From Micrococcales bacterium (lineage in GTDB: Bacteria; Actinomycetota; Actinomycetes; Actinomycetales; Microbacteriaceae), in contig JAFKIY010000001.1 in the NCBI GenBank assembly GCA_017306245.1, positions 682,001 to 746,000 on the forward strand: a stretch of 64,000 nt of DNA. The letters run 5' to 3'. Position 1 is the first letter of the stretch. The number at the start of each line of letters is the position of its first letter. The notes under the pieces are model-generated. The model had not been told where the DNA came from. It saw only the letters and a list, made by a program, of their open reading frames with translations, and ran no database searches. Below are positions 18,342 through 28,522 of this stretch, in pieces. A program made the translations under genes and the position numbers.

Positions 18342-19022
18342 CGGCTGAATATATCGGTTCCACAGCGCAGCCAGAATGCTGACGGCGATGGCCGAGTAGA
18401 GGAGTGACGCGGTCACATCCGACACGTAGTGCACGCCGAGATAGACGCGTGACAGTGCCACGGCGACCGCGAGGAGTATTCCGGCCACGACGATCAGGAG
18501 GCGCCAGGAGCGACCGCGGGCCAGCACGATGAACCCCAGCGCCAACGAGGCGGCGAAGGCGGTGTGGCCGCTCGGAAAGCTCCAGGAGGTTTCGCTGATC
18601 AGCGGATGCGCGAGCAGCGAGGAGTCCGGCCGGGGCCGCTGCACGATGTACTTGATCACTTCGGTTCCGAGCCAGGAGCCGGCCACGAGCACGACGAATT
18701 CCACCGCTGCGCGCCAGCGTCGGGTGAAAAGCAGGATGAGCACCGCTACACCCGCGAGAAGTACGGCCGCTATCCGAGGGCTGAACAGGAAGTCGATGCC
18801 GAGCGACACGGCGTCCAGAATTCCGGTGTGAATTCGACTGAACCCTTCGAGCACACTCATTTCTGCGGCGGTCCAGCCGACCGAGTGAGTCATGAGCGCG
18901 CCGATCGCCACGATGAGCGCAATCCCGACGACCCCCGAGCTCATCCGGAGGATGAAGCTGCGTCGAGTACTGAGCCGTTGCGCGGGACCCGGCGACGAGG
19001 GAATCCCAGTGATTTCGATCAA
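18306..19022 (-). CDS. PAP2 superfamily membrane phosphatase
   Basis: A 238-residue membrane protein with about six hydrophobic segments and all three PAP2 motifs: KYIVQRPRP (124-132), PSGHT (150-154, catalytic H153) and SRVYLGVHYVSD (191-202, H198). Members dephosphorylate lipid phosphates such as undecaprenyl diphosphate or phosphatidic acid on the outer face of the membrane. Its start overlaps the Lgt stop by four bases, so it is co-translated with a lipoprotein-processing enzyme. Substrate unproven; UppP is encoded separately at 30 kb. Confidence 0.88.
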   Translation of the reverse strand: MIEITGIPSSPGPAQRLSTRRSFILRMSSGVVGIALIVAIGALMTHSVGWTAAEMSVLEGFSRIHTGILDAVSLGIDFLFSPRIAAVLLAGVAVLILLFTRRWRAAVEFVVLVAGSWLGTEVIKYIVQRPRPDSSLLAHPLISETSWSFPSGHTAFAASLALGFIVLARGRSWRLLIVVAGILLAVAVALSRVYLGVHYVSDVTASLLYSAIAVSILAALWNRYIQPLHGRHRNRGAN

Positions 19023-19966
19023 CGCGAACCCGAATCGGTCGAATCCCCGTGCTCGTCAACTTTCGCCGGCGAGGTCGCCGTTTCCGGCGCGTTCGCTGCG
19101 TGCGGTTCCCGGCCCGGCCGGTACACGGACACCTCGGGTTCCGGGTGCCGTCGGCTTTGAACCACGATCAGGATGATGCCCAGGGCGATGGCCGCGAAGG
19201 AAGCCCAAATATTGGCCGGGATTCCGAACAGTGCGTCGCTCGTGGGGTCGATGCGGATCGCCTCAAGCCAGCTGCGGCCGAGCCCGTACCAGATGAGGTA
19301 TACGCCGAACGCGCGGCCCCAACGCAACCCGTTACCGCGTTGACGGAATTTGCGCTCGACCCACAGGATGATTCCCACACCGACCAGGTTCCAGATCATC
19401 TCGTAGAGGAACAGTGGATGGAACAGGGTATCGGCGGGGAGGCCCTTCGGGAACATCGCATCCGTCGGCAGAATCTGAAGCCCCCAGGGGAGCGTCGTGG
19501 GGAGCCCGAACAGTTCATGGTTGAAGTAGTTGCCGAGGCGGCCGATTGCCTGGGCGACGAGCATCCCGGGGGCAAGCGCATCCGCGAAGGACCAGAATCG
19601 AATACCCGTGCTGCGGCACCCGATCCAGGCACCGACGGCACCGCCCAGCAGAGAGCCGTACAGCGCGTTGCCGCCGTCCCAAATGGCGAAAATGTTCCAC
19701 AGGTTCGCGCCGGGGTAGAAGTAGTCGCCGCCGTGGGTGAACACGTGATAGAAGCGTGCGCCCACGATACCGAGCGGAATCGCCCAAATGATGATGTCGA
19801 GCACCACTCCGGGATGGGCCCCGCGTCGGCCAAGCCGGCGCTGGGTGATGACGGCCGCCGCGATCATGCCCGCAAGCAGGCATAGTGCGTACGTGTGGAT
19901 GGTGATCGGGCCAAGCTGGAACTGTGCCCAGGCGGGGTCGGGGCTGGGGATGCTGAAGTGGGTCAC
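19019..19966 (-). CDS. lgt: Prolipoprotein diacylglyceryl transferase
   Basis: A 315-residue membrane enzyme that moves diacylglycerol from phosphatidylglycerol to the lipobox cysteine of prolipoproteins, the first step of lipoprotein maturation. The Lgt signature GRLGNYFNHELFG lies at 142-154 (R143, N146, E151), and H74 is in RFYHVF. The start is a GTG at 19966. About 35 C-terminal residues are a charged tail beyond the membrane core. It would act on the lipoproteins in this window (importer binding protein, FKBP, CtaC) before Lnt. Confidence 0.93.
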   Translation of the reverse strand: MTHFSIPSPDPAWAQFQLGPITIHTYALCLLAGMIAAAVITQRRLGRRGAHPGVVLDIIIWAIPLGIVGARFYHVFTHGGDYFYPGANLWNIFAIWDGGNALYGSLLGGAVGAWIGCRSTGIRFWSFADALAPGMLVAQAIGRLGNYFNHELFGLPTTLPWGLQILPTDAMFPKGLPADTLFHPLFLYEMIWNLVGVGIILWVERKFRQRGNGLRWGRAFGVYLIWYGLGRSWLEAIRIDPTSDALFGIPANIWASFAAIALGIILIVVQSRRHPEPEVSVYRPGREPHAANAPETATSPAKVDEHGDSTDSGSR

Positions 19967-20104: not shown

Positions 20105-20110
20105 TATAGT
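20105..20110 (+). promoter_or_regulatory. -10 hexamer before the 743-residue membrane protein
   Basis: TATAGT (20105-20110), a near-consensus -10, with a predicted start of transcription near 20117. A leader of about 23 bases includes CGAGGAG at 20127-20133 as ribosome site for the ATG at 20140. The -35 region is not conserved. Confidence 0.45.
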
Positions 20111-20139
20111 GCCGGGCACTCGCCCCCGAGGAGCCCATC

Positions 20140-22371
20140 ATGCGATCAATCGCAGCTGGAATCATGGTCGGAGCGGTTCTCGCATCGCCCTTGCCGACGA
20201 CAGAATCTGTAGATCAGCCCGGAGCAATTGCGGTGATTTCACGGGCCGAAATCGCCACGACCACAGTCACGGACATCGAGTCCCTGCTCTCCAAAATTCC
20301 TGGCGTCGCGTCGTACCGTTTTGGCGATGACCCGCATGGCACAGCTACGCTCGACCGCGACGTGGTGCCGGCCGCGACCCCCGATCTGATTGGCGCCATG
20401 GTGCTGAGGCCCGGAACCGCCGGCTTCGGCGGGCTGGATGCCGCGATCCAGGGTTCTTCCTCCGAGTATCAAACCGTCGGCAATGGTCTCAACGACCTCG
20501 GCGACTACCTGTTCTTCATCGCGACACGCGCGGGACAGACAACGGCCAGCCCCCAGCCCGGGCTGGTTTCGCAAATTGAATTTCCCATTGGGTTCGCCGG
20601 CGAGACCGGTTGGGTTGCGCAATCCAAGTTCCCCGGCGACACCTGGCAGGGTGCGTCCCTCGTGTTGAGCAGTCAGCTCACGTTGGAAGGGAAGTTCACT
20701 ACGACGCTCTATGACGTCGGCAACGGGTTCGCACCGCTCCCGTTCAATGGACTGTTCGCCAGAGGTCCGGACTGGGCCATGGCCGCCGTCGACTGGGGCA
20801 CCCTCGAAGCGTACAACCCTCGGCCGGTGAGTTGGGGATTCGCGTCCCACGTGCACGACGGATCCTTCGGCTCGTGCTCCACGTGCTCATCCATTGTCAC
20901 GGCGTACCCGCCTGTGCCGCGAACCTCGGCCGACCTGTACCCGCTCGTGGCCACTGCGATCGACCTCGACAAGCCGACGGCCGAGGAGACCCGACCGCCA
21001 ACGGCCACCGACCAGAGCGGAACCCTGCCGTGGTTACCCCTCGTGATTATCGGATTTGTCCTGCTCTTCATCCTGATCGCACTGAGTTGGTTCTTGAGCG
21101 CGCGACGCAAAGAGCCCACGGCGTGCGATCGGGAACGGCGGGAATGGGAAGACGCGAAGAGACGCCTGGAAGCGGCGCGCGAGCTTCTCGAATCCCAACA
21201 CGAAGCGTTCAACGAACGGATGGCTCGGGTCACCGAGGTGGAAACTCTTCTCGCGGAGTACGAACAGGCCCTGGAGGGCCCCACCGCGGGCTCGGGCGGC
21301 ACCGAATTCGCCAGACTGGACGGCGAGTTGATTGTTGTCAGCGACTTGAAGGAACTCATTGGGCACCTCAAGGCCGATCTCGCCGACGCCCGATCTGATG
21401 CGGACCGCGAACGAGTCGAACTTGACCGCAGACTCGCCCGGTTCACCGAAGCGGAGGAACAGGAGGCGGCCGCGCGCGCAGCGTATGAGGCGTGCATGGC
21501 GGCGGCCGCCGCATCCTCAGAGGCCGCAAGCAGCGAGGGCACGAAGGACCCGCCGCCGACATCGACAGGCCGGGGTGGATCCAGCACCCCGGGCGTCGTT
21601 GTCGCGCCCCCAATGAGCTCCACACCCCGTGCGGACTGCGGCTGTGACTCGGATACCGCTTCCAGCCCGGTTGCCGTACCGGTCGGAGCAGCAGAGCGGT
21701 TTCGACTGTTCCGGGACTTCGATGTGATCTCCCACGTGGAGGAGTCTTCGCAGCATGGTGCCGATCTGGTGGGTGCCGATCTGGTGACCGGTCTCAAAGA
21801 TGCTGGCGTAACACTGACGACGATCGGCTCGGCCCTCAGCGGCCGCAACGCAGCGCTGGGCGGCGCGAAAGCGGTCGGTTCGCTCCAGACCGGGAAGTTC
21901 GTCAAAGGCTCACTTGAGGCGGTCAAAGGCACTGTCGACGGTCTCGGAGCGATCGATGTGATTCCCAATGTTCCGACGAGTTTGCCCGAAGCGGTCGCAC
22001 AGGGTTTGGCTGCCACGGCAAACCTTGGTGCCTTCGTCGCCGGCAAGGTGACGGAGTGGATGGGCAAGAACACGCTCGTGAGCGTGCACGCGACCTACTA
22101 TTTCCAGACGGTGACGATCCAGCCAACTCAGATTTGGGTCTGCGAAGACGGCGTGTGGAAGTGCAAGACGAAAGTGAACGTCTACACCGTTGGTTCCCTG
22201 GAACGTGAGCGGGGCCGCGATCAGCAGTTCACCGTCAAGAGCGAACCCGAGCGGAGAGCCCTCAGGGTGCATGTGGCGACGCTCGCGTCGCGAGGCCGCC
22301 TGCGCATCACGAACTCGGTGGCTCACATCGCGACGTGGGAGGCCGCCCACCCCACGGGTGACTGCCCGTAG
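20140..22371 (+). CDS. Unrecognised bitopic membrane protein with cytoplasmic coiled coil
   Basis: A 743-residue protein of no family I recognise. It has a short N-terminal hydrophobic signal (4-17), an external region of about 270 residues with a CSTC pair at 246-249, a proline/threonine linker and one transmembrane helix at 297-319 followed by ARRK, which predicts N-out/C-in. A charged, heptad-like helical region follows at about 330-460. Next comes a low-complexity Pro/Ser/Gly/Thr linker (461-515) with CGC at 500-502, and a C-terminal domain (515-743) with a glycine/alanine-rich helical part and a beta-rich end containing C668 and C675. A -10 box and ribosome site precede it. The layout suggests signal transduction or scaffolding across the membrane, which is inference only. 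Confidence 0.7.
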   Translation: MRSIAAGIMVGAVLASPLPTTESVDQPGAIAVISRAEIATTTVTDIESLLSKIPGVASYRFGDDPHGTATLDRDVVPAATPDLIGAMVLRPGTAGFGGLDAAIQGSSSEYQTVGNGLNDLGDYLFFIATRAGQTTASPQPGLVSQIEFPIGFAGETGWVAQSKFPGDTWQGASLVLSSQLTLEGKFTTTLYDVGNGFAPLPFNGLFARGPDWAMAAVDWGTLEAYNPRPVSWGFASHVHDGSFGSCSTCSSIVTAYPPVPRTSADLYPLVATAIDLDKPTAEETRPPTATDQSGTLPWLPLVIIGFVLLFILIALSWFLSARRKEPTACDRERREWEDAKRRLEAARELLESQHEAFNERMARVTEVETLLAEYEQALEGPTAGSGGTEFARLDGELIVVSDLKELIGHLKADLADARSDADRERVELDRRLARFTEAEEQEAAARAAYEACMAAAAASSEAASSEGTKDPPPTSTGRGGSSTPGVVVAPPMSSTPRADCGCDSDTASSPVAVPVGAAERFRLFRDFDVISHVEESSQHGADLVGADLVTGLKDAGVTLTTIGSALSGRNAALGGAKAVGSLQTGKFVKGSLEAVKGTVDGLGAIDVIPNVPTSLPEAVAQGLAATANLGAFVAGKVTEWMGKNTLVSVHATYYFQTVTIQPTQIWVCEDGVWKCKTKVNVYTVGSLERERGRDQQFTVKSEPERRALRVHVATLASRGRLRITNSVAHIATWEAAHPTGDCP

Positions 22372-22392: not shown

Positions 22393-24093
22393 TCAGCGCG
22401 ACGGGTCCCGGCTGAAGACGCCAGCGAACAACGCATGGAGCAACGGGAGTCCGGAAACCGCCATGAGCACCCACCCAAATACTTCATCCGTTTGCTTGAG
22501 GAAGATGCCTCCGAGGAGAAGTCCGGCGAACACTATTGCCGAGAGAACCCGGTGCGTCAGTCGTTCGAACGACCGGACGCGCTGATCCAGGCCCGGCGTC
22601 CGGATAGCGAGCTGTCCCCGCTGAATCAGGGTGCTGAGGTCGTCCAGTTGCTGAGGCAGCCGTGCAAGGACACCCACCGTCGCGAGCGCCTGATCCGCGA
22701 ACGCGCGCAGCGTATCTGAGCCCTGCTTGCGCGTAAGACGCGCGGCATAGGGTTCGATCGCCGTCCAGATGTTGAATGCCGGATTCAGCGCAGTGCTCAC
22801 GCCGGACGTCACTGACACCGCGCGAATAATCAGGAGCAGGTTCTCCGGGAGTTGGAACGGCATCGTCCGCATCACTTTCCCGAACTTGTCCGCGAAGTCC
22901 TTGAACTCGCGCGGATCCACTTTCTGCAGTTCCGCGAAACCCAGCCCGCCGAACCGGTCGAACAGCTCGCCCATCGCCCGCTCGAGCGGTGCTCCTTCCG
23001 CGGAGGGCAGGAGCATCCCCATTTCCCGGATGCTGGCCACCAGCCCTTTCGAGTCGCGCGCGGCCACGGCGACGACGAGCCGCTGCATGCCGCCCCTGAG
23101 CGAGTCGGGAACTTCACCCATCATTCCGAAGTCGACGAAGGTCAGTGCCCAGGGCACTCCGGTTGCGTCAGTCGGCCCAGACGCGGTCGGGGTGACGAAA
23201 ATGTTGCCAGGGTGCGGGTCGGCGTGGAAGAAGCCGTGCGTGAAGAGCTGGTCAAACATTGCGCTCGCGAGTTCTTCCGCGACGGCGGCCGGGTTGATCC
23301 CCGCCGCTCTGAGCGAGTCGCTGTCGCTTATTTTTGTCGCCGTCACGTCGGAGAGCGTCAACACTCGCCGTGTCGTCCGCTCCCACACCACCGTTGGCGC
23401 CAGCACCCGGGGATCATCGGCAAAGTTTTCGGCGAAACGTTCTGCGCTGCTGCCCTCATGCAGGTAATCGATCTCCTGCATGCTGATTCTGGCGAACTCG
23501 CCGAGGAGTGCGCGCAAATCGACCCGCTGCGAGATGAAGGCGACACGGTTGAGCCAGTCGGCGACCTTGCGCAATGCCGCGAGATCGACTTTCACGATCT
23601 CGTCGATCCCGGGGCGCTGGACTTTCACAACCACATCGGCAAAGCCCACCAAGTCGGCGTCGCGTTGCGACAGTGTCGCACGGTGCACCTGGCCGAGGGA
23701 GGCGGCGGCCACCGGTGTCGGGTCGAAGGACGTGTACGCGCTCTCCAGGGCAACACCGAGGTCGGCCTCGGCAAGTTCACGGACCAGGGCGAAATCCGCG
23801 GCCGGAACCTCATCCTGGAGTCCTTCGAGCTCGCTCGTGATTTCCGGCGGGAGCACGTCGAGCCGCGAGGACATGAACTGGCCGACTTTGATCATGAGGC
23901 CGCCGAGTTCGATCGCGAGGTCGTGGAAATGCCGCGCGATGCGCCGTGTTCTGGATGCGCGGCCGCGACGCCCGATGCTCGCGAGCCCAATGCGGGGGAG
24001 AGCTACTTCGAACCACCACTCCTGCACAATGTATCGGCTGGCGAACCGGAGGATCTTCCGATAGCGGGCGCGCAGGTGCCTGACGTTCGTCAT
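22393..24093 (-). CDS. UbiB/AarF (ABC1) atypical kinase family protein
   Basis: A 566-residue protein with the hallmarks of the UbiB family: KVGQFMSSR (about 67-75) of the KxGQ motif, the alanine-rich loop ASLGQVHRATL, the lysine strand VVKVQRPGI, the catalytic-loop equivalent HADPHPGNI and the metal-binding VDFGMMG. Two hydrophobic segments near the C-terminus anchor it to the membrane. Such proteins support quinone or lipid handling in bacteria, by ATPase activity. It lies 36 bases after the PadR gene and probably shares its transcript. Confidence 0.9.
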   Translation of the reverse strand: MTNVRHLRARYRKILRFASRYIVQEWWFEVALPRIGLASIGRRGRASRTRRIARHFHDLAIELGGLMIKVGQFMSSRLDVLPPEITSELEGLQDEVPAADFALVRELAEADLGVALESAYTSFDPTPVAAASLGQVHRATLSQRDADLVGFADVVVKVQRPGIDEIVKVDLAALRKVADWLNRVAFISQRVDLRALLGEFARISMQEIDYLHEGSSAERFAENFADDPRVLAPTVVWERTTRRVLTLSDVTATKISDSDSLRAAGINPAAVAEELASAMFDQLFTHGFFHADPHPGNIFVTPTASGPTDATGVPWALTFVDFGMMGEVPDSLRGGMQRLVVAVAARDSKGLVASIREMGMLLPSAEGAPLERAMGELFDRFGGLGFAELQKVDPREFKDFADKFGKVMRTMPFQLPENLLLIIRAVSVTSGVSTALNPAFNIWTAIEPYAARLTRKQGSDTLRAFADQALATVGVLARLPQQLDDLSTLIQRGQLAIRTPGLDQRVRSFERLTHRVLSAIVFAGLLLGGIFLKQTDEVFGWVLMAVSGLPLLHALFAGVFSRDPSR

Positions 24094-25633: not shown

Positions 25634-25712
25634 AAATCAGAGTCTAGGACGCAGGACCCGGACCGATTGTTGGGCAGATGTGTTCCGCCTGGTCGAAAGC
25701 CCTCCTCCTGAC

Positions 25713-26573
25713 TTATCCAAGTACGTGGTCGTTCACCATGGCCCGGAAGTAGCCGAGCGCGTTGCCCAGCGCATTCGGATGGAAGTTAGCCGTCGCGTAC
25801 AAGTCGTTCGGATTGAAACTGATATACGGAATGCGCGAGCCGATGCCGTGGTTCGCGAACTCCTGCGTAACGTCCACCACCTGCACGTGAGCTATACCAG
25901 ATGCCGCACTCTCTATGATCCCGTTCAACAGGGCCAGCGCGCCGTTTACCTGATCACCCAGGGGCGGCACCCCTTCTTTGAACAGATACGGATAGGTGAA
26001 TACCACGACGCGGGCATTCGGCATGGCGGAGGCAATCGCCTCATAGGTCGAGGTGAGATTTGCCTTGAGGGGGGAATCCGGCGAGGTCAGTAGCCACATC
26101 GCTTGGCCGATGGCAGCGGCACATTGCGCTGAGCCCGCATCCGTTCCGCAGGCGGCGAGCACCACATTGGATCCGATGTCGATTCCGCCCACGGTCAGCG
26201 TCACCAGCTTTGCTGACGACTTCACATCGGCAGGCACATCGGCCAACTGCTGTGCAACGTGCGCCATGTCGGCTCCGGAGCACGATTCGTTGGCGACGAG
26301 TTTGTATCGGGTGAGGGCCGCGGTGATGACCGGGTAGCTCGTGTATTTGCTTTGCAGGCAGTCGCCGGCCAGATACGGCGGAGCGCCCTGTCCGGAGCTG
26401 AACGAATCTCCCAGCGCAACATAGCCGGCTGTCGAATAGGAGGTAAACCATCCTTGTGGAGTCACGGCCGCGGCGGGGGCTGCGGAGGTTCCAAAAATCA
26501 ACGCCGTGGTCAGGAGGGAGAGCGCGCCGAGGCGCGACAAAAGCCGGGGTTGAGCTTTAGTTGGGTTATTCAT
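25713..26573 (-). CDS. Secreted SGNH/GDSL-type hydrolase with altered motifs
   Basis: A 286-residue exported protein. A signal peptide with basic start and hydrophobic core 14-30 ends near AAPAAA (31-36). Block I is intact (ALGDSFSSGQG, nucleophile S57), as are block II SCSGAD (97-102) and the block V histidine H265. Block III reads VGGID instead of GGND, so the usual oxyanion asparagine is missing, and the position three before H265 is alanine rather than aspartate. Ser-His dyads are known in Streptomyces esterases of this group. Paired cysteines (C72/C98 and C142/C151 likely) fit an extracellular enzyme. Substrate unknown. Confidence 0.82.
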   Translation of the reverse strand: MNNPTKAQPRLLSRLGALSLLTTALIFGTSAAPAAAVTPQGWFTSYSTAGYVALGDSFSSGQGAPPYLAGDCLQSKYTSYPVITAALTRYKLVANESCSGADMAHVAQQLADVPADVKSSAKLVTLTVGGIDIGSNVVLAACGTDAGSAQCAAAIGQAMWLLTSPDSPLKANLTSTYEAIASAMPNARVVVFTYPYLFKEGVPPLGDQVNGALALLNGIIESAASGIAHVQVVDVTQEFANHGIGSRIPYISFNPNDLYATANFHPNALGNALGYFRAMVNDHVLG

Positions 26574-26653
26574 GCGCGAACTTTACTCTCGTCATTCTCC
26601 GTTGAATAGAGTTCACAGGGAAGAACCGAGCGTCCGGCTGGGTTGAGTTCACC

Positions 26654-27688
26654 ATGAAATCAGTCATCTTCAGCGAAACCGGGGACCCCTCCGTCCTGCG
26701 CCTTGTCGACCGAGAGGTCGCTGCGCCCGGCCCGGGGGAGGTCCGCGTGCGAATTGCCGTCTCCGGCGTGAATCCCACGGACTGGAAGTCGCGCCGGGGC
26801 GCCAAACCGGGTGACGCGTTGCCGTACTCTGAGGTCGTGCCGAACCAGGACGGCGCCGGGGTCGTTGACGCTGTGGGTTCGAGTGTCACGGGTATCAGCG
26901 TGGGCGACCGGGTCTGGCTCACGCTCGCGGCATATCAGCGGGCGAGCGGGGGAACCGCACAGGAGTACACCGTGCTGCCCGCCGAGCGCGTGCATCCGTT
27001 GCCGGATTCCGCGAGCTTCGACCTCGGCGCGAGCCTTGGGGTGCCGGCGGTGACCGCACACCGTGCCCTCACCGTGGCGGAGGACGGCCCCTCCCGGCTG
27101 CACCCGGGCGCGCTCGATGGCACGATCGTGCTCGTCGCCGGCGGTGCGGGTGCGGTCGGGCACGCTGCGATCCAGCTCGCCCACTGGGCCGGCGCCACGG
27201 TGATCACGACGGTGAGCTCAGCGGAGAAGGCTGCGCTGGCAACGGCCGCCGGTGCCGAACACGTTGTCAATTACCGGAAGTCGGATGCGGCCGCGGAGAT
27301 CCGCCGCATCGCCCCGGGCGGCGTCAACACCATCGTTGAAGTCTCCCCGGCGCAGAATGCGGGGTTGAATCTCGCCATCGCCGCCAATCATGCGACCGTC
27401 GCGGTGTACGCGAACAATGGCGGCGACACGATGAGCCTCGACGTGCGAAAACACTTCAGTCTGAACGTGCGCTACCAGTTCCTGCTGCTCTATACGGTCG
27501 GCGACGAGGCGATACGTGCTGCGGTGGACGACGTCACCGCAGCAGTGCGCGACGGCGCCATGGGAGTGGGGGAGGAGTCCGGTCTGCCTTTGCACCGATT
27601 CGATCTCGCCCATACCGCGGAGGCGCACGCCGCAGTGGAGAGTGCCGTCACCGGCAAGGTGCTCATCGACGTTGCCGCGGTCGGCTGA
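26654..27688 (+). CDS. Quinone oxidoreductase-type MDR family reductase
   Basis: A 344-residue medium-chain dehydrogenase/reductase without the zinc-ligand pattern, so of the NADPH:quinone reductase branch. The N-terminal GroES-like domain includes VSGVNPTDWKSRRG and the junction PNQDGAGVVDAVG; the Rossmann domain begins at VAGGAGAVGHAAIQLAHWAGA (about 160-180). Likely role: NADPH-dependent reduction of quinones or enones in the cytoplasm. It diverges from the SGNH gene over 80 bases and is followed by the DHFR-like reductase. Confidence 0.87.
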   Translation: MKSVIFSETGDPSVLRLVDREVAAPGPGEVRVRIAVSGVNPTDWKSRRGAKPGDALPYSEVVPNQDGAGVVDAVGSSVTGISVGDRVWLTLAAYQRASGGTAQEYTVLPAERVHPLPDSASFDLGASLGVPAVTAHRALTVAEDGPSRLHPGALDGTIVLVAGGAGAVGHAAIQLAHWAGATVITTVSSAEKAALATAAGAEHVVNYRKSDAAAEIRRIAPGGVNTIVEVSPAQNAGLNLAIAANHATVAVYANNGGDTMSLDVRKHFSLNVRYQFLLLYTVGDEAIRAAVDDVTAAVRDGAMGVGEESGLPLHRFDLAHTAEAHAAVESAVTGKVLIDVAAVG

Positions 27689-27729
27689 TCCACTGTGCTG
27701 GCCACCTTTTCCGCGCATCCGGTGCTTGG

Positions 27730-27735
27730 TAGCGT
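27730..27735 (+). promoter_or_regulatory. -10 hexamer of a leaderless reductase gene
   Basis: TAGCGT lies 6 bases before the GTG at 27742, with no Shine-Dalgarno sequence, and supports that GTG over the TTG at 27736. Confidence 0.4.
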
Positions 27736-27741
27736 TTGCTC

Positions 27742-28404
27742 GTGACAAAGCTCAGAGTGCACAACCTCGCCGTGTCTTTGGACGGCTTTGCAACGGGCGA
27801 AGGTCAGTCGCTCGAAACGCCGTTCGGTCATGCCGAGGGCCGGCTGATGCGCTGGTTCTTCCCCACGAACACGTTCGTCAGCATGTCGAGCCATGAGGAC
27901 GAAGCGGTCGGAATGGGCACGCACGGCGTCGACGATGCCTTCGCGGCCGCGACCAATCGGGGGATCGGCGCGGAGATCATGGGTCGCCGCAAATTCGGCC
28001 CGCAGGTCGGTCCCTGGGAGGACGAATCCTGGCGCGGCTGGTGGGGCGAGGAGCCGCCGTTTCACAGCCCGGTGATCGTGCTGACGCATCACCATCGCCC
28101 GGATCTGGTCGTCGGCGAGACGACGTTCCTCTTCCGTGAATTGCCTCCAGCCAAGGCGCTGGCGCTGGCGACAGAGCTCGCAGGCGGACTCGATGTGCGT
28201 CTCGGGGGCGGCCCGACGGTCGTGCGCGAGTTTCTCGAAGCCGATCTCGTCGACCATCTTCACGTGGTCGTGGTTCCGATCGTGCTCGGACGCGGGGTGC
28301 GGCTCTGGGATGGCCTGGAAGGACTCGAGCAGCGCTTCGAGGTCGAAGTGACCGCGTCGCCCACCGGAGTCGTGCACTACGTGTTCACACGCAAAACGCG
28401 GTGA
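27742..28404 (+). CDS. Dihydrofolate reductase/RibD C-terminal domain family protein
   Basis: A 220-residue single-domain protein of the RibD_C/DHFR-like fold: start VHNLAVSLDGFATG, then EIMGRRKFGP (about 78-87), and the dinucleotide region GGLDVRLGGGPTVVREFLEADLVDHLHVVVVPIVLGRGVRLW split over 150-195. Stand-alone members are common in actinobacteria and have no assigned substrate; they are neither FolA nor RibD. Start chosen at the GTG because TAGCGT lies 6 bases upstream. Confidence 0.85.
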   Translation: MTKLRVHNLAVSLDGFATGEGQSLETPFGHAEGRLMRWFFPTNTFVSMSSHEDEAVGMGTHGVDDAFAAATNRGIGAEIMGRRKFGPQVGPWEDESWRGWWGEEPPFHSPVIVLTHHHRPDLVVGETTFLFRELPPAKALALATELAGGLDVRLGGGPTVVREFLEADLVDHLHVVVVPIVLGRGVRLWDGLEGLEQRFEVEVTASPTGVVHYVFTRKTR

Positions 28405-28436
28405 TCGTGGGGGACTAGGCGGATGGATACTCTCTG

Positions 28437-28522
28437 TGTCCGAAGGGGGACTTGAACCCCCACGCCCTAATACGGGCACTAGCACCTCAAGCTAGCGCGT
28501 CTACCAATTCCGCCATCCGGAC
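28437..28522 (-). tRNA. tRNA-Leu, anticodon GAG
   Basis: The minus strand folds as an 86-base type II tRNA. The acceptor arm GTCCGGA pairs with TTCGGAC, the anticodon stem CTAGC/GCTAG encloses the loop TTGAGGT with anticodon GAG (reads CUC and CUU), the variable arm is long as expected for leucine (TGCCCGTATTAGGGCG), and the T arm is GGGGGTTCAAGTCCCCC. The discriminator is A; CCA is not encoded. No integrase or attachment-site repeat is seen beside it. Confidence 0.96.

Follow-up and report, generated by a model that had tools for sequence, protein, structure and literature searches.

The window analysed here, 64,000 nucleotides from a Micrococcales bacterium of the Microbacteriaceae (contig JAFKIY010000001.1, positions 682,001 to 746,000), contains a gene, referred to below as X, for a large membrane protein that an earlier note on this DNA could not place in any family and likened to receptors or tethering proteins rather than enzymes. 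The locus raises the question of whether X is an orphan or one member of a wider group of proteins, and what such a protein might do at the cell surface. X has a single close ortholog and six distant relatives among the genomes searched.

The open reading frame of X has the 743 residues previously described, and its ribosome-binding site is as clear as had been claimed (Table 1). The earlier note had also credited X with a good -10 box. The hexamer is present but has no -35 partner, as a promoter scan detected no plus-strand site upstream of X, and it differs in the ortholog. The codon usage of X was inside the range of the neighbouring genes.

Hydropathy and sequence confirmed the proposed succession of an outside domain, one helix, a linker, and a C-terminal domain. 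Exactly one strong hydrophobic helix was detected (approximately residues 292 to 324; peak Kyte-Doolittle value, 3.0), the signal-like stretch at the N terminus being weaker. The residues ARRK directly past the membrane helix suggest an N-out/C-in orientation, that is, a type I single-pass topology. What had been described as a 130-residue coiled coil is indeed a charged helical region, but rather than a single coil it consists of two amphipathic helices with shifted heptad phase, split by a Gly/Ser loop at approximately residues 381 to 390 and framed by Cys329 and Cys452. Cysteine pairs were found exactly where they had been noticed before (246/249, 500/502, and 668/675), and together with Cys329, Cys452, and Cys742 they make up nine cysteines, all nine of which are kept in the ortholog.

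Table 1. Coordinates in the window of X, its parts, its upstream signals, and its neighbours
Feature	Position	Strand	Basis or remark
X, whole gene, 743 codons + stop	20140..22371	+	ORF; 88% full-length ortholog; dN/dS 0.176
TATAGT, possible -10 box	20105..20110	+	Sequence; without -35 match; TATTGT in ortholog
GAGGAG ribosome-binding site, 6 nt before ATG of X	20128..20133	+	Identical in ortholog
lgt (prolipoprotein diacylglyceryl transferase), divergent neighbour of X	19019..19966	-	Named from sequence
ubiB/ABC1-type kinase gene, convergent neighbour of X	22393..24093	-	Named from sequence; adjoins lgt directly in G002
Signal-peptide-like N terminus, residues 1-21	20140..20202	+	Hydrophobic stretch; comparable start in all aligned relatives
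Outside region, residues 22-292	20203..21015	+	Shared family domain at about residues 35-260; profile E = 2.3e-21; hhalign 99.0%
HVHDG motif, residues 237-241	20848..20862	+	H-x-HDG in X, ortholog, G944, G1448, and G1437
C-x-x-C, residues 246-249	20875..20886	+	Present in G1437 too
Transmembrane helix, about residues 299-321	21034..21102	+	Hydropathy 3.02; position common to relatives
Charged helical region, residues 325-455	21112..21504	+	Starts C329-x6-W336, ends near Cys452; two helices with Gly/Ser break
Low-complexity linker, residues 456-499	21505..21636	+	Fast evolving; dN/dS 0.36
C-terminal domain, predicted cytosolic, residues 500-743	21637..22368	+	Ortholog identity 96%; dN/dS 0.069; no relatives found elsewhere

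The one close relative of X among the genomes searched was on CALMSL010000043.1, from an uncultured member of the Microbacteriaceae (L003; the match recurs as G006). This ortholog is 88% identical to X over the full length, and the gene order is the same. The dN/dS ratio between the two was 0.176 for the whole gene, compared to 0.058 for ubiB and 0.091 for lgt, and within X it was 0.067 in residues 140 to 292 of the outside region, 0.069 in residues 500 to 743, 0.36 in the linker, and 0.46 in the membrane helix. On the basis of these codon comparisons, X is a real gene under purifying selection in both globular halves. A lack of homologues combined with neutral codon evolution, which the earlier note had named as one of two observations that would speak against its reading, was not what was found.

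Sequence searches of Pfam, NCBIfam, PHROGs, PADLOC, and PDB recovered no fitting family for X, in agreement with the earlier description of a protein without a recognisable family, and a literature search found no paper describing such a family. Apart from a short Plug-like stretch (see below), the matches were to coiled coils or were due to chance: the PADLOC match to JetC reflected coiled-coil similarity only, and PDB matches to a butyrophilin coiled coil, a BMC shell protein, and SEM1 were attributed to chance. Full-length and domain searches of plasmids, phages, and viral contigs gave no match. The genome searches covered 2000 genomes in all, chosen by sampling and searched with different queries, and the absences reported here apply to those. 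For the C-terminal domain (residues 500 to 743), these searches returned no convincing match outside the ortholog. Weak matches to it occurred in 12 Microbacteriaceae genomes, but most of the nine loci inspected were ABC-F ATPases and one was an aldehyde dehydrogenase, indicating chance similarity in composition. AlphaFold models of the outside and C-terminal domains had pLDDT values of 32 and 34; only two sequences were available as input for each, so the predictions were uninformative and Foldseek searches with these models were without meaning.

The profile search against actinobacteria that had been suggested earlier revealed six distant relatives of the outside domain of X, all in another class of the phylum (G944, G1448, G1437, G815, G1093, and G1102; G numbers denote searched genomes and their family proteins). 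A search of the phylum with a two-row profile for the outside region detected G944 (E = 3.1e-7), a protein of 720 amino acids with its parts in the same order as in X. A match in G856 (E = 7e-4) was rejected, as it overlaps a thioredoxin-reductase-like gene. The similarity between the two (pairwise BLASTP, E = 2e-11) covers the outside domain, the membrane helix, and the start of the helical region. A three-row profile run on 45 relatives of G944 detected G1448 (E = 1e-40), G1437 (E = 7e-33), and G815 (E = 1e-10), and a six-row profile run on 24 genomes of the class of G944 detected G1102 (E = 1e-43) and G1093 (E = 1e-42). These proteins were found via profiles seeded on X and were then checked reciprocally. 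A profile built from G1437, G944, and G1448 only recovered X at an E value of 2.3e-21, compared to 0.14 for the best of 2000 shuffled copies, and hhalign gave 99.0% for the outside domain (E = 6.9e-18). All-against-all BLASTP connected all members with X, the links being weak for the proteins from the three uvr loci described below (E = 7e-6 to 2e-4). Of the distant members, G1437 was the closest to X, with 33% identity over 218 amino acids, including the C-x-x-C (E = 4e-22). The family of eight proteins, X and its ortholog included, is characterised by an outside domain of approximately 200 to 240 amino acids with a P-x-D-x-W motif, located after the signal peptide, and by a membrane helix that follows a Pro/Thr-rich stretch. 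As judged from these alignments, X is a member of an actinobacterial family that had not been catalogued before and that has a conserved outside domain, and the existence of distant relatives rules out de novo birth of X as an orphan gene.

The inner halves of the family proteins differ. In X and its ortholog, the C-x6-W helical region is followed by a domain of 244 amino acids for which no relative was found. G944 has a similar helical region (C350-x6-W357 to C520) and then a different domain; hhalign gave 0.1% for the C-terminal domain of X against the C-terminal part of G944. G1448 has the same helical start, and its sequence ends at the contig end. G1437 has a short tail, G815 and G1093 have membrane blocks of several helices that are rich in Trp (G1093 in duplicate), and G1102 has one helix followed by a different soluble region of approximately 400 amino acids. 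None of the inner pieces tested matched a Pfam family. At each of the loci L054, L059, and L060, the family gene, which is that of G815, G1093, or G1102, is located between uvrA and uvrC, names assigned on the basis of sequence. Two of the three loci also have a methyltransferase-like gene. G815 and G1102 were 41% identical over residues 2 to 449 (approximately 450 outside residues), and no similarity was reported beyond. Comparison of these proteins indicates that the inner half is exchanged at one conserved locus, uvrA-X-uvrC; the combination of a constant front and an exchanged C terminus was seen among eight proteins only, and one of these is truncated where its contig stops.

The retention of the outside domain among relatives that change the inside module fits a receptor or a tether, and it supports the earlier preference for such a protein over an enzyme. 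The same order of parts (signal, outside domain, membrane helix, and C-x6-W helical region) in X, G944, and G1448 also counts for a receptor or tether. Interchangeable cytoplasmic output modules are found in single-pass transmembrane receptors such as methyl-accepting chemotaxis proteins and sensor kinases. The family of X resembles such receptors in having a signal peptide or N-terminal helix, an outside domain, a membrane helix, a helical linker, and an exchangeable inner module. However, no HAMP, kinase, cyclase, or chemotaxis signalling domain was detected in X, which had no match in Pfam or NCBIfam to HAMP or to an output domain (MCP, histidine kinase, or GGDEF), and its outside domain is in no listed family. 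The outside domain might bind a wall-side ligand or partner. Spacing and oligomeric state might be set by the helical region that begins with Cys-x6-Trp, and a cytosolic partner might be recruited or acted on by the C-terminal domain. With such roles for its parts, X would be a surface receptor or membrane tether that links what happens outside the cell to a partner in the cytosol, the favoured reading, whose chances we consider to be about even. Against this reading, neither a signalling domain nor a ligand or partner could be recognised, and the gene neighbourhoods differ between lineages and therefore indicate no functional partner.

The main rival to such coupling is a structural anchor, an envelope tether or adhesin whose outside domain would attach to the wall or to an adjacent cell while the inner part anchors or scaffolds, without any signal. 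The short tail of G1437 and the membrane-only, Trp-rich blocks of G815 and G1093 fit signalling less well than they fit a structural or tethering role, and the low-complexity linkers beside the membrane and the failure of the searches to detect a signalling domain also favour it. However, the C-terminal domain of X is conserved like a housekeeping protein (dN/dS, 0.069), apparently more strongly than passive anchoring would require, and a purely structural role, while possible, appears somewhat unlikely. A front half that stays constant while the C-terminal ends differ, as seen in the family of X, is the hallmark of polymorphic toxins (PMC3482391). This likeness, along with the patchy presence and single-gene insertion of X, could point to a protein of genetic conflict (defence or polymorphic-toxin-like), with a constant half for delivery or sensing and exchangeable effector ends. 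Unlike such toxins, X is anchored by a membrane helix. Its variable end comes after that helix, is predicted to face the cytosol of the very cell that makes it, and evolves slowly under purifying selection. Moreover, no toxin family matched X, no defence domain was detected other than the coiled-coil similarity in PADLOC, and no immunity gene adjoins it, the neighbours being the convergent ubiB and the divergent lgt. A role in genetic conflict is accordingly considered improbable.

A remnant of a TonB-dependent receptor, in which residues 25 to 62 would go back to a plug domain of diderm origin, was also considered. This stretch resembles the start of the colicin I receptor plug and the Pfam family Plug (PF07715), with E values of 0.0017 in X and approximately 1.1e-4 to 1.2e-4 in the ortholog. 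Against a cut-off of 23.9 bits, X scored 19.3 to 21.6 and the ortholog 23.0 to 24.1, the latter value, just over the cut-off, being obtained in a genome scan. However, the match spans 40 of the 107 model positions, no full-length plug over the curated cut-off was found in X, and no barrel family was matched, the remainder of X containing charged helices and only one membrane helix. By its lineage, the host is a monoderm. G1437, G944, and G1448 align across the stretch without plug-like letters, and the resemblance is therefore judged to be convergence, which makes descent from a TonB-dependent receptor the least credible of these explanations and a most improbable one.

The family turns an apparent orphan into an entry point to an uncatalogued group of proteins with testable parts. 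One solved structure of the shared outside domain could serve all members, and the exchange of inner modules points to function. If the members are receptors, they would add to sensing in the Actinobacteria a family that Pfam and NCBIfam currently miss. A bolder proposal is that of a new family for sensing at the surface, whose conserved extracellular sensor would be recombined with many unrelated cytosolic effector modules and whose members would move between classes as single genes; this seems rather unlikely.

In G002, ubiB and lgt are present in the same order and orientation, approximately 17 bp apart, and X is absent; thus, X occupies a junction that exists without it. Searches of eight genomes of the genus gave no match to X in six, several of them incomplete drafts. 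Given the relatives in another class, this distribution is most simply explained by a gain of X at the junction of ubiB and lgt in an ancestor shared by both host species, repeated loss being the alternative. The gain would probably have been by lateral transfer, with X kept by selection. The sequence GTCAG is present at both ends of the inserted segment but is too short to count as evidence of a duplication.

Several other features of these regions were observed. The genome of X apparently has four lgt-like loci, the copy in the window and three others (G000:C7:457412, C7:596839, and C3:34090) that are 78%, 64%, and 55% identical to it; other genomes of the genus have one or two. Similar MFS-type transporter genes are located near the family genes of G944 (L044, 8006-9391) and G1448 (L052, 1574-2881), and a DM13-domain (electron-transfer) membrane protein follows in G944. 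Near the family gene of G1437, L053 10366-12546 encodes a second signal-peptide, helix-rich protein with scattered cysteines and no named family. Within the window, identity to the sister genome rises from approximately 85 to 90% to approximately 97% at about positions 25700 to 28430, which include SGNH-hydrolase-like and oxidoreductase genes. With dS values of 0.10 to 0.12, compared to approximately 0.4 to 0.5 elsewhere, this tract, which reaches the end of the compared stretch beside tRNA-Leu(gag) (28436-28522), looks like a recent exchange.
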